Part shown: piece after piece, positions 7,699 through 61,232 of the stretch
Numbering within the stretch: position 1 is the first letter of the stretch
Layout of the letters: each line of letters starts with the position of its first letter
Notes under the pieces: model-generated
The model's input: the letters and a program-made list of their open reading frames with translations, nothing else
Told to the model about the DNA's origin: nothing
The model's database searches: none
Translations under genes and position numbers: made by a program
Assembly: GCA_028714855.1 (NCBI GenBank)
Contig: JAQTLP010000003.1
Coordinates: forward strand, 1 to 64,000
Source of the DNA: Phycisphaerae bacterium
GTDB taxonomy: Bacteria > Planctomycetota > Phycisphaerae > Sedimentisphaerales > Anaerobacaceae
DNA length: 64,000 nt
Reading direction: 5' to 3'

Positions 7699-7771
7699 TA
7701 CCCCCAAGGGGAATCGAACCCCTGTTACCGGGTTGAGAACCCGGTGTCCTGGGCCGCTAGACGATGGGGGC
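7699..7771 (-). tRNA. tRNA-Glu(CTC)
   Basis: 73 bases. The acceptor stem is GCCCCCA/TGGGGGT (a G-T pair at the end), the D arm has GTCTAGCGGCCCAGGAC, the anticodon stem CCGGG/CCCGG encloses TTCTCAA (anticodon CTC), and the T arm is AGGGGTTCGATTCCCCT. No CCA is encoded. Confidence 0.95.
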
Positions 7772-7785
7772 CTTTTCAGTCGTTG

Positions 7786-8198
7786 GTGAATAGGGATTAG
7801 TGAATAGTATTTTCTCGAAGTTTTTTGACCAATCCCATAATCATCTTGCTAATTTGTTCTGCCTCGCCAATTAAGCTTTCGGCATTGTTATTCTTTATAA
7901 AACCAAGCCGTTGGGCAATCGTAAGTTGCGTTATCACTTCCGAACAGCTACCTAAAGCGGTAAATAAAAATTGTGCATATTCTTTATTGTGAAACCTGCC
8001 AAATCCTTCAGCAATATTCGACGGTATTGAAACTGCAGCTCGTCTTAGTTGTCCGGTCAGTCCGTAAACTTCTTCTTTTGGAAAAGTCTTGGTATTTTGG
8101 TAAATATCTTCAACTAACTGGACTCCTCGTTGCCAAATCTTAAGGTCTCTGAAATTCTTTATCTTTGTGCTATTCACTATTCACAAACACCTATTCAC
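7786..8198. mobile_element. S23 gene cassette bounded by inverted GTGAATAG repeats
   Basis: The 8-base word GTGAATAG occurs twice at the left end (7786-7793, 7800-7807) and three times in the opposite orientation at the right end (8170-8177, 8177-8184, 8191-8198). The gene between them uses repeat bases for its start codon and for its last codons and stop. The block sits between tRNA-Glu and tRNA-Met. The repeats and positions are seen directly; that the block moved as a unit is inference, and no transposase or target duplication is visible. Confidence 0.5.
7797..8177 (-). CDS. Four-helix-bundle protein of the S23/23S rRNA intervening-sequence family
   Basis: 126 residues. FRDLKIWQRGVQLVEDIYQ at the N-terminus, the central LRRAAVSIPSNIAEGFGR and the later LTIAQRLGFI are the hallmarks of this small helical family. 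It was first known from insertions in 23S rRNA genes and forms pentameric helical bundles; its cellular role is unclear. The start codon is GTG and lies inside a GTGAATAG repeat, so the true start could differ slightly. The C-terminal residues TIH are also encoded by a repeat. Confidence 0.9.
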   Translation of the reverse strand: MNSTKIKNFRDLKIWQRGVQLVEDIYQNTKTFPKEEVYGLTGQLRRAAVSIPSNIAEGFGRFHNKEYAQFLFTALGSCSEVITQLTIAQRLGFIKNNNAESLIGEAEQISKMIMGLVKKLRENTIH

Positions 8199-8234
8199 TT
8201 ACCTCAACGTCGATTTCCTTCGACGTTGAGGTAA
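8199..8234. repeat. Perfect 14-bp hairpin between S23 gene and tRNA-Met
   Basis: TTACCTCAACGTCG at 8199-8212 is the exact reverse complement of 8221-8234, with an 8-base loop. It lies directly against the outermost GTGAATAG repeat and ends at the discriminator base of tRNA-Met (8235). No T run follows on either strand, so it is more like a processing or protective hairpin than a normal terminator. Confidence 0.75.
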
Positions 8235-8308
8235 TAGCGGCGGTCGGAATCGAACCGACGACCCTGGGCTTATGAATCCCATGCTCTAACCAGCTGAGCT
8301 ACGCCGCC
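8235..8308 (-). tRNA. tRNA with CAT anticodon (Met, or Ile2)
   Basis: 74 bases. Acceptor GGCGGCG/CGCCGCT has a terminal G-T pair, the D arm carries AGCTCAGCTGGTTAGAGC, the anticodon loop is TTCATAA and the T arm GTCGGTTCGATTCCGAC. The anticodon stem has one A-G mismatch next to the loop. The first acceptor pair is G-T rather than the C-A mismatch of initiator tRNA, so this is elongator Met or a lysidine-modified Ile; sequence alone does not settle which. Confidence 0.93.
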
Positions 8309-23579: not shown

Positions 23580-24584
23580 TTGAAAACCGTATTAAATCTT
23601 TTCACTATTATCTTCCTGATTGCCCTTGCGGGATGCGAGCCGGGAGCCGAGGGTAAAAAACCGTTAACCGGAAAACGAAACCTGATAACTGTAAATTTCC
23701 AAGAGGGCCAGACTCTGCAGTACAAGTTCTCCTCCAGCAGAGATATTGAGGTTGACTGGGGACAGATAAAAAGCGGCTCTAAATCTAAACCAGGCAAGCA
23801 CAAGGTCGATAAATCCTCCGAGTCAATGGATATGGTCGTTGCTTATACGCCAGTTAAAATAGACCCTCACGGCCCTACAACCATAAATGCAACATGCAAT
23901 TCGGTAAGCGTCAAGCGAACTTCACCAGGACGGCAAGGCACAGGCAGAGACGCCGTCGAAACTCTTCGAGGGGCAAGTTTCACGTTCACCGTCGAGCCTA
24001 CGGGCAGAATTGAGGACTATTCACAATTAGAGAAGTTAATTAAAGAGACCGGCGAGAGAGCCTTCCGGCCGAAAGATACAGACGGCAGGGTTAAAGAGCC
24101 CGATATGATAGCAGATTTCATCGCCACACAATGGTTCCTGTGGGATTCGATTTCCAGTATAAAAAAACCGTCAAAGGGAGTCTACGCAGGTCAGAGCTGG
24201 AACTCTAAATTGTCTGTTCCAACCCCGATGGTAACACGAAAAGCAAGGGACGTTATCTATACTCTCGATGAAATTCGCCAAACTGAAAAAGGGCAACTCG
24301 CCGTGATACGGAGTTCCTATTCGCCTGCCGATTCGGCCCCGGAGAACTGGCCAAAACCTTACTCCGGCAGATTCCAAATGAGCGGCAGATTCGGTTTCCT
24401 AAGGGGTTACAGGCTCCTGGATTTGCAGGGTCAAGGCGAGGAGCTGTTCAATATAGATACAGGCCAAACAGAACGATACAATCAACAGTATCAGGCAAAA
24501 GTAGAGGCTTCTTTACCAATAGATATCGGCCCAAAGCCACTGATAACTATCAAGCAAAATTTAATAATGGAGCTTCTTAAATGA
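23580..24584 (+). CDS. Lipoprotein of unknown function, paralogue of the previous gene
   Basis: 334 residues from a TTG start with AAGGAG 6 bases upstream. Lipobox LIALAGC with C19. VNFQEGQTLQYKF near 36-48 parallels the opening of the previous protein, and FTVEPTGRIEDYS parallels its KIAPSGEVIEVID; YAGQSWNSKL parallels TGDNWSITK. These matches support a tandem duplication with strong divergence. Probably membrane-anchored and periplasmic; no function known. Confidence 0.7.
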   Translation: MKTVLNLFTIIFLIALAGCEPGAEGKKPLTGKRNLITVNFQEGQTLQYKFSSSRDIEVDWGQIKSGSKSKPGKHKVDKSSESMDMVVAYTPVKIDPHGPTTINATCNSVSVKRTSPGRQGTGRDAVETLRGASFTFTVEPTGRIEDYSQLEKLIKETGERAFRPKDTDGRVKEPDMIADFIATQWFLWDSISSIKKPSKGVYAGQSWNSKLSVPTPMVTRKARDVIYTLDEIRQTEKGQLAVIRSSYSPADSAPENWPKPYSGRFQMSGRFGFLRGYRLLDLQGQGEELFNIDTGQTERYNQQYQAKVEASLPIDIGPKPLITIKQNLIMELLK

Positions 24585-36987: not shown

Positions 36988-37731
36988 ATGCTGACCAAAG
37001 ACACTGCTATCTGCATACGAACAACGGATTACTCTGAAACATCTCAGATAGTGACCCTTTTCACCAGGGCAGCAGGCAAAATCAGCGCAATCGCCAAAGG
37101 CTCTAAAAGGCCAAAATCCGCCTTCGACGGCCCGCTTGAAATCCTCTCTTGTGGCCAAATCGTCTTTTCCGATTCGAGCGGAGGAAAACTTGCCACCCTT
37201 ACCGAATTTCAGCAAACCCCGTCCTTTTCCTGCACAAAAGATAATCTCTTTGCGTTAAATTGCTGCCTTTTCGGCGCCGAACTTGTAAACAGTTTGACGC
37301 ACGACTATGACCCGCACCCCGAACTCTTCGATAGCTTTCTTCAGTTTCTACAAAACGCCAATAAGCATCAAGAGCATCGACAGGTATTAGCTCTGCTCAT
37401 ACTGTTTCAATTGACCTTGCTTCGGGAAATCGGCCTGATGCCCATACTGAACGCCTGCGCAAATTGCAAAACGAGTCACGGGTCACGAGCGACGAGTCAC
37501 GAATTCTATTTCAGCAGCTTGGCCAACGGCCTGATTTGCGGCGACTGCGAGGCAAATTTCCCCGACAAAATCAAACTGTCCAAAAACGCGTTTGATTGTC
37601 TGACGAATGTGAAATTAATCGCAAAGGCTGAAGAAAAAGCACTCAATGAAATCGAAAAAATCTTAATTCACAACTTCACCGAAATCCTCCACCACCCGCC
37701 AAAAATGGCCAAATATGTACTGAAAAGCTGA
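36988..37731 (+). CDS. recO: DNA repair protein RecO
   Basis: 247 residues. RecO helps load RecA in gap repair. An OB-fold N-terminus (TKDTAICIRTTDYSETSQIVTL, GKISAIAKGSKRPKS) and a helical part with a four-cysteine zinc site: CANC about 152-155 and CGDC about 179-182. The loop between them holds a repeat-derived stretch (direct repeat ACGAGTCACG at 37471-37480 and 37492-37501), in frame. It ends the purA-recO run. Confidence 0.93.
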   Translation: MLTKDTAICIRTTDYSETSQIVTLFTRAAGKISAIAKGSKRPKSAFDGPLEILSCGQIVFSDSSGGKLATLTEFQQTPSFSCTKDNLFALNCCLFGAELVNSLTHDYDPHPELFDSFLQFLQNANKHQEHRQVLALLILFQLTLLREIGLMPILNACANCKTSHGSRATSHEFYFSSLANGLICGDCEANFPDKIKLSKNAFDCLTNVKLIAKAEEKALNEIEKILIHNFTEILHHPPKMAKYVLKS

Positions 37732-60753: not shown

Positions 60754-61232
60754 AAATTTGGCTTCGTTTGGGTTCGTTTTTGTGAGTTCATTGTTCGTGG
60801 TTCGTAGTTGTTAGTTGTTGTCGAGCAAAGAGTTAAGCTCGTTTTTGGCATTTTGGAAATTGGGTTCGTTTCGCATAATTAACTTCATTTTGATTGATTT
60901 TTCCGGTCAGCGCAGAAAATCTCTGTGCAGCCACAGAGGGCACAGAGAAAAAAAAGAGAAGTAACTTATAAACAGTATTAATTTGGTTATTGGTAACCAC
61001 TCATTAGGAATTCCTTTCAAAACTATCCCCCCGCTACTTCGCAAAGGCGAAGTAAAACGACGGGGGTAGGCGAAGTATCGCCTTATATAATTGGAGGGAC
61101 TTGCGCGAATGATGCGAAAAATGTAATCGTCGCTCGTCGTTAGTCGCTAGTAACTCGATATAGGAAAAGGAGTAAGAATTTTTTTAAAAAAATGGATTTT
61201 AGGAAAAGAGTACCTGCGCATTTGATTGATTC
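60752..61232 (+). repeat. Dispersed intergenic repeat, copy B
   Basis: Second copy of the element at 37777-38202, same orientation, filling most of the 675-base gap. Shared blocks: TTGGCTTCGTTTGGGTTCGT (60758-60777), ATTGGGTTCGTTTCGCATAA (60859-60878), CAGCCACAGAG...AAAAGAGAAGTAA (60929-60964), CAGTATTAATTTGGTTATTGG to ATTCCTTTCA (60973-61019), TATAATTGGAGGGAC to TGATGCGAAAA (61085-61120) and ACCTGCGCATTTGATTGATT (61212-61231). Between the fourth and fifth blocks it has its own hairpins: CCCCCG/CGGGGG (61028-61033, 61061-61066) around TACTTCGC/GCGAAGTA (61035-61042, 61047-61054), then GGCGA-AGTA-TCGCC (61069-61082). Confidence 0.75.

Follow-up and report, generated by a model that had tools for sequence, protein, structure and literature searches.

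An S23 gene enclosed by inverted arrays between two tRNA genes

Proteins of the S23/IVP family have long been known from interrupted ribosomal RNA genes, and the genes that encode them are common and, to our knowledge, of no known function. What, then, is such a gene doing between two tRNA genes, with short inverted repeats at both of its ends? The gene in question encodes 126 amino acids on the minus strand (7797–8177) of the window, the 64,000-nucleotide stretch of a Phycisphaerae genome analysed here, and is defined by its open reading frame, profile matches and a structure model. As the initial annotation had placed it, it lies between tRNA-Met (CAT; 8235–8308, minus strand) on its upstream side and tRNA-Glu (CTC; 7699–7771, minus strand) on its downstream side, both identified by tRNA and Rfam searches; tRNAs are the only Rfam matches in the window, and the insertion is not within an rRNA gene here. 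The four-helix-bundle S23 identity proposed from the letters is borne out by PF05635 (E = 9.7e-40, 135.5 bits, cut-off 33.8), NF008911 (153.6 bits, cut-off 137) and TIGR02436 (134, cut-off 24). The solved S23 protein XCC0516 is a pentamer ring, and our monomer model of the window protein (pLDDT 94.5) matches solved S23 proteins best, namely 2gsc (TM 0.86/0.94) and 2rld, followed by Avd (4dwl, E = 9.4e-3, TM 0.78/0.88, 8% identity) and by Avd in the reverse-transcriptase complexes of diversity-generating retroelements (DGRs). This structural match agrees with the relation between PF05635 and Avd noted in the available text of PMC10053308.

The repeats first described as 8-base units, two at the left end and three inverted at the right, are present as copies of GTGAATAG at 7786–7793 and 7800–7807 (plus strand) and at 8170–8177, 8177–8184 and 8191–8198 (minus strand), with a sixth, solitary copy at 24017. 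Six copies exceed what is found in 100 shuffles of the window (mean 1.56, maximum 5), and 7786–7808 matches the inverse of 8176–8198 at 20 of 23 positions, compared to a maximum of 18 in 100 dinucleotide shuffles of 7786–8198. The unit itself is 7 nt long, however, and the arms are period-7 arrays rather than 8-bp terminal inverted repeats. In gene orientation, the 5′ arm (8170–8198, minus strand), its period read from the sequence, consists of the heptamers GTGAATA GGTGTTT GTGAATA GTGAATA, and the 3′ arm (7772–7808, minus strand), recognised from sequence and from its match to the other arm, is an inverted copy that runs ACTATTC ACTAATC CCTATTC ACCAACG ACTGAAA (+AG), with the final two heptamers weak. 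The gene does take both of its termini from the repeats, as had been claimed: the GTG start lies inside the GTGAATAG copy at 8170–8177, the last codons ACT ATT CAC are supplied by the copy at 7800–7807, and the stop codon TAA (7799–7797) follows directly, within the next heptamer. Since the array can be read as far as 7772, the edge of tRNA-Glu, the element is perhaps slightly longer than 7786–8198. Two heptamer arrays without S23 lie elsewhere in the window, at 37485–37502 (minus strand, TCGTGACTCGTCGCTCGT) and at about 60791–60820 (plus strand, TTGTTCGTGGTTCGTAGTTGTTAGTTGTTG).

A perfect hairpin does abut the right end, with a stem of 15 bp rather than the 14 bp reported initially, between the 5′ arm and tRNA-Met (8199–8234, minus strand; stems 8199–8213 and 8220–8234), and it is a candidate part of the cassette only. 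We rejected it as a repeated element, as its eight matches in the genome at up to two mismatches, two of which are the hairpin itself, are not clearly above the six found for a control. In the predicted RNA, the arms pair around the whole open reading frame and adjoin this hairpin (z = −4.55 when the entire spacer, hairpin included, is folded), and terminal repeats closing the RNA in a stem, as in intervening sequences (IVSs), are found in the predicted fold.

Matched inverted heptamer arrays accompany S23 genes

The same genome contains eight PF05635 matches, two of them truncated at contig ends, and each of the other five complete S23 loci has its own periodic array on one side or both, with the words GCGTATA, TAAGAGCG, TAGTTCG, GATGAGTA and ACAAATA. 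The initial annotation suggested searching for further S23 copies bounded by GTGAATAG; there are none in this genome, and a fixed terminal inverted repeat was rejected as a candidate, each S23 locus having its own word. We also discarded the pattern GTGAATAG-N6-GTGAATA, which has three exact occurrences, two at this locus and one in an S23-less array (C6:197992), with looser matches at control level. The two truncated genes (L006 and L007, at the start of G000:C7 and the end of G000:C10) were left out of the counts below; part of the protein sequence is common to both S23 fragments, as would be expected if the assembly had broken at a single gene whose flanks are of the ATCTCAAATTTGAGA type.

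Of 61 related genomes, 52 contain PF05635 matches, compared to none of 14 control genomes; the genomes are mostly drafts. The loci of related genomes include 40 further ones taken in list order from among the matches listed, with some near contig ends skipped. Scoring a flank as periodic at 16 of 21 matches at lag 7, a threshold that misses weak arrays, we find that the upstream flank is periodic at 43% and the downstream flank at 60% of 75 such loci, compared to 0% and 3% for control flanks taken 300 bp farther out; at lag 8 the values are 11% upstream and 7% downstream, and at lags 4–6 and 9–13 they do not exceed 4%. Loci with period 8 in one arm often show it in the second arm as well. A perfect inverted 10-mer is common to both flanks at 61.3% of these 75 loci, against 4.1% for flanks of different loci and 1.4% for control flanks (72 loci), and a direct 10-mer is common to both flanks at 9.3%.

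These proportions recur outside the related genomes. Among 78 of 80 loci from many phyla, assigned by record titles to Omnitrophota, Planctomycetota, Bacteroidota, Acidobacteria, Nitrospirae, Clostridia, cyanobacteria, Patescibacteria and others, 66.7% share an inverted 10-mer, compared to 4.2% for different loci and 5.6% for controls, and among 25 of 30 loci on phage contigs the values are 64%, 2.5% and 6.9%; the loci dropped here (two of 80, five of 30, and one of four in a further set) had flanks that were too short or an identical upstream 60 nt, and the viral loci include near-identical contigs (L136/L138, L140–L142), while L176 matches L103 and has the same words. From these sequence comparisons, S23 loci in general carry matched inverted heptamer arrays, with words that differ between loci; in the literature covered, we did not find heptamer arms reported as a general property of such loci. 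At 140 of 179 S23 loci, a same-strand open reading frame of at least 80 codons begins no more than 150 nt from the S23 stop codon, at a median distance of 42 nt, from which cassettes tend toward gene junctions. On phage contigs L136, L158 and L162, arrays have entered the reading frames of neighbouring genes, whose products gain new N- or C-terminal tails from them (MPNSQYPISNSQ..., ...KVESEEWRVESEFT).

The pattern does not extend to every S23-like gene. Divergent PF05635 genes of two genomes, G138 (13 copies counted, 12 regions fetched) and G073 (three loci), are periodic upstream in three cases and downstream in none, with one inverted pair (n = 16); as they proved to be divergent members mostly without arrays, we dropped these copies as a candidate case of recent amplification, and they limit the rule to the main S23 clade. 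These multi-copy genes (L466–L477 in G138, L478–L480 in G073) are preceded by a conserved stretch with hairpins of its own, which may be a separate family of repeats associated with S23-like genes.

The repeat word follows the S23 protein

Words could be called at 145 of 189 loci, of which 106 remain after near-identical genes are collapsed; the window's own arms fall under the threshold used for calling. Among pairs of loci that share no neighbouring gene, the proportion with the same word, defined as at most one difference in any rotation, rises from 1.6% below 45% S23 identity to 31% at 70–85%, and the reverse-complement word across the same pairs falls to 0%, so that the word tracks the protein in gene orientation only. 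Over the 106 loci, the mean word distance is 2.75 at S23 identities of at least 60% and 3.45 below 50%, a difference reached in none of 5000 permutations within collections.

In the tree, the window gene belongs to a nine-member clade (SH-aLRT 92), in which one locus is from Omnitrophota and another from Phycisphaerales, and words made up of a T[AG]GT core and a variable triplet are found at all nine loci of this clade and at 15 of 99 others (7 of 7 and 5 of 46 when restricted to relatives), just as CGT[AG] is found at 11 of 15 loci of a neighbouring clade and at 13 of 91 elsewhere, in tests of both cores that were framed after the words had been looked at. Because noncoding flanks are unlikely to be alike by descent alone at 60% protein identity, we take this match between word and protein as a sign of recognition. 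The two arms of a locus also change together: in 133 pairs of loci that share a neighbouring gene and have S23 identities below 90%, some of which share only the neighbour's family and may not occupy the same site, a locus's own arms match in 63.5% of cases and swapped arms in 21.4%, and neither swap matches in 35 of the 54 pairs in which both own arms do.

Arrays without S23

Heptamer arrays are not confined to the flanks of S23 genes. In 300 kb of one S23-rich genome (G005), we find 40 lag-7 arrays, nine beside S23 and 31 without it, a density of about 130 per Mb for both kinds together, which indicates that arrays are able to exist apart from S23; 222 kb of the window's own genome contain nine such arrays, and 120 kb of a genome with no S23 match (G058) contain none. 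The number of matches to two fixed array patterns correlates with S23 copy number across 61 genomes (Spearman 0.60; 0.45 within the window's family and 0.55 outside it), compared to 0.33 for a reversed-pattern control, and the median number of matches is 0 in the nine S23-free genomes and 29.5 in the 52 with S23. The TAGT pattern taken alone shows no enrichment over its reversed control (941 versus 1067). A phylum-wide replicate is weaker and points in the same direction, with TCGT arrays in 32 of 58 S23-positive and 16 of 61 S23-free genomes; one genome outside the S23-positive set (G116) has 46 TCGT array matches.

A GTAACCC/GCAACCC array of more than 200 bp has no S23 adjoining it (L457 1–240, G005:C21). 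Two hairpins in genome G006 (L461 1–801 and L462 1–901) lack S23 and consist of inverted TAGTNNN/ACTANNN arrays around a GCCGCC-TTCGGCGGC palindrome, a core common to both; they look like miniature versions of the cassette.

Gain, loss and copying of cassettes

The tRNA-Met/tRNA-Glu pair recurs among relatives, and we recovered 20 spacers from 19 genomes, 19 of which (15–139 bp) lack S23, including those of both other genomes of the genus (36 and 100 bp). The initial annotation had named a gene and repeats present in all relatives, with no empty site, as the outcome that would speak against a mobile cassette; the 19 S23-free spacers are the reverse of that outcome. It had also hoped for precise edges from this comparison, and these are not obtained at the window site: the spacers of the two genus mates, read by eye, show no resemblance to that of the window, and the cassette's edges here stay imprecise because the spacers are too diverged for alignment. 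Four S23-less spacers (L048, L056, L059 and L062) contain short heptamer hairpins instead. The twentieth spacer, from G012, holds an S23 gene of the same clade (L049) with the word TAGTATT; the clade of the window and G012 genes lacks resolution in the tree, and the two may stem from one ancestral insertion followed by losses or from two insertions.

Among phage contigs, an S23 gene lies between two genes in L251 and is absent from L252–L254, which are 85–87% identical on both sides, 542 bp in the former replacing 66 bp in the latter; in L251, the final codons of one gene come from the array, as does the sequence that leads to the next gene's start codon. A second filled site (L363) differs likewise from six S23-less relatives, and in every one of these comparisons the position of one edge is identical or shifted by a single base. 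No target-site duplication was seen in these phage comparisons of filled and empty sites, in which 50–66 bp are replaced. Two S23 copies of G071, which occupy unrelated sites, align over 452 bp with 88% identity, and this alignment begins and ends in the arrays; in L484 and L153, tandem S23 copies are linked via an array. Recent copies within a genome are rare (one of 85 pairs at 70% identity or more), which argues that the cassettes are not bursting transposons, and we saw no insertion enzyme for them. On this comparative evidence, relatives differ in whether they carry a cassette, and in one genome a cassette was copied such that the common sequence extends only from array through S23 to array. 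The small mobile cassette first proposed thus survives in its gain and loss and, in the phages and G071, in edges that lie in arrays, but not in its fixed 8-bp ends.

A proposed mechanism and its alternatives

We think it probable that the window gene exemplifies a kind of miniature cassette that occurs widely and in which an S23 gene lies between inverted arrays of a 7-nt, sometimes 8-nt, word; the mechanism that goes with this reading is a proposal. We infer an IVS-like mobile cassette whose protein would recognise its own heptamers. Once transcribed, the cassette would form an RNA closed by a stem, in the manner of 23S intervening sequences. As Avd is part of a nucleoprotein machine and the word matches the protein, an S23 oligomer may bind its own clade's heptamer ladder, whether in RNA or in DNA, and such binding could help the cassette, and in trans similar S23-less arrays, to spread and to stay uniform. 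An insertion enzyme would have to be supplied by the host.

The arms might instead act at the level of RNA only, as complementary stems for RNase III excision from tRNA or mRNA precursors, with spread by ordinary horizontal transfer and recombination and no recognition of the word. The predicted closing of the RNA around the reading frame and the joint change of the arms are what this would produce, and the S23-containing IVS of Coxiella, as described in the available text of PMC4990558, has an RNase III-cut stem of 28 bp as well as 5′ heptamers; the 7-nt period, the S23-less arrays that track S23 copy number, and the recurrence of one word core at unrelated sites among distantly related S23 genes are left unexplained, and we regard this account as unlikely, if a serious competitor. 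It is improbable that the arrays are independent tandem repeats born of slippage, in or beside which S23 genes land or stay. S23-less arrays are indeed common (31 of the 40 in G005), and heptamer arrays have been published with no mention of S23 in the part of PMC4679880 available; slippage, however, yields direct arrays and not matched inverted ones flanking a gene, the word would not track the S23 protein at unrelated sites, and in G071 the arrays accompany both copies.

A classical transposon or MITE, with fixed terminal repeats and a transposase acting in trans, could account for the inverted ends and for S23-less hairpins of similar build such as those of G006, and yet fixed terminal repeats common to the copies of a genome were not found. 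A transposase of fixed specificity would need fixed ends, the ends vary from locus to locus within one genome, and no target duplication was seen at the empty phage sites; we regard this reading as very improbable. We give even less credence to an Avd-like retroelement, in which S23 and a resident reverse transcriptase would copy the cassette RNA, despite the structural similarity of S23 to Avd and to reverse-transcriptase complexes of DGRs and the PF05635–Avd relation in the available text of PMC10053308. The window's genome has a single RVT_1 match, on contig C14 and not on the window's contig C3, and 33 of 61 genomes have none, although drafts may miss some; as these include the S23-rich G001 (13 S23 matches), G005 (nine), G033 (eight) and G024 (five), a resident reverse transcriptase is probably unneeded.

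Returning to a cassette whose protein recognises its own word, we offer a broader generalisation tentatively, judging its chances to be somewhat short of even. S23 proteins would be word-specific array binders that, with their arrays, constitute a new class of protein–repeat mobile system in many phyla and phages, in which the unit of array, S23 and inverted array is autonomous and S23-less arrays are its dependents; 23S IVSs with S23 would then be a particular instance, inserted into rRNA, and at least some of the bacterial heptamer arrays that lack an explanation would be products of the system. Intervening sequences, heptamer arrays and Avd-like bundles have so far been treated as separate matters. 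If S23 binds its own heptamer, a family present in 52 of 61 related genomes acquires a function and S23-less arrays a source close at hand, and the rule that links word to protein clade makes such binding directly testable.

Comparison with known systems

REP and REPIN repeats are small palindromes thought to be propagated in trans by the RAYT protein, whose gene they flank. REPs are palindromes of 20–40 bp with a four-base tag, whereas S23 cassettes are bounded by heptamer ladders, and the RAYT fold is unrelated to that of S23. Avd of DGRs has the same four-helix-bundle fold, but its partners are a reverse transcriptase and a template repeat, neither of which adjoins the window S23 gene, and the two proteins are 8% identical. 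The TAACTGA heptamer arrays of Beggiatoaceae, cyanobacteria and Bacteroidetes described in the available part of PMC4679880 are likewise intergenic 7-nt words, often directly 5′ of start codons; they are, however, direct repeats of one word, and the terms "S23" and "four helix" are absent from the main text of that paper.

The 23S IVS of Coxiella is, among the publications and parts of publications available to us, the sole precedent found for S23 with heptamers. According to the accessible portion of PMC4990558, its 28-bp terminal stem is cut by RNase III, and tandem GACAGAT heptamers, in a number that varies between strains, precede the S23 start; that portion does not report the heptamers as general or as linked to the protein. 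The Coxiella element lies within 23S rRNA and carries one word in one species, in contrast to the window cassette between its tRNA genes, yet the two have in common the protein family, an inverted-repeat stem that closes the element, and heptamers 5′ of S23.
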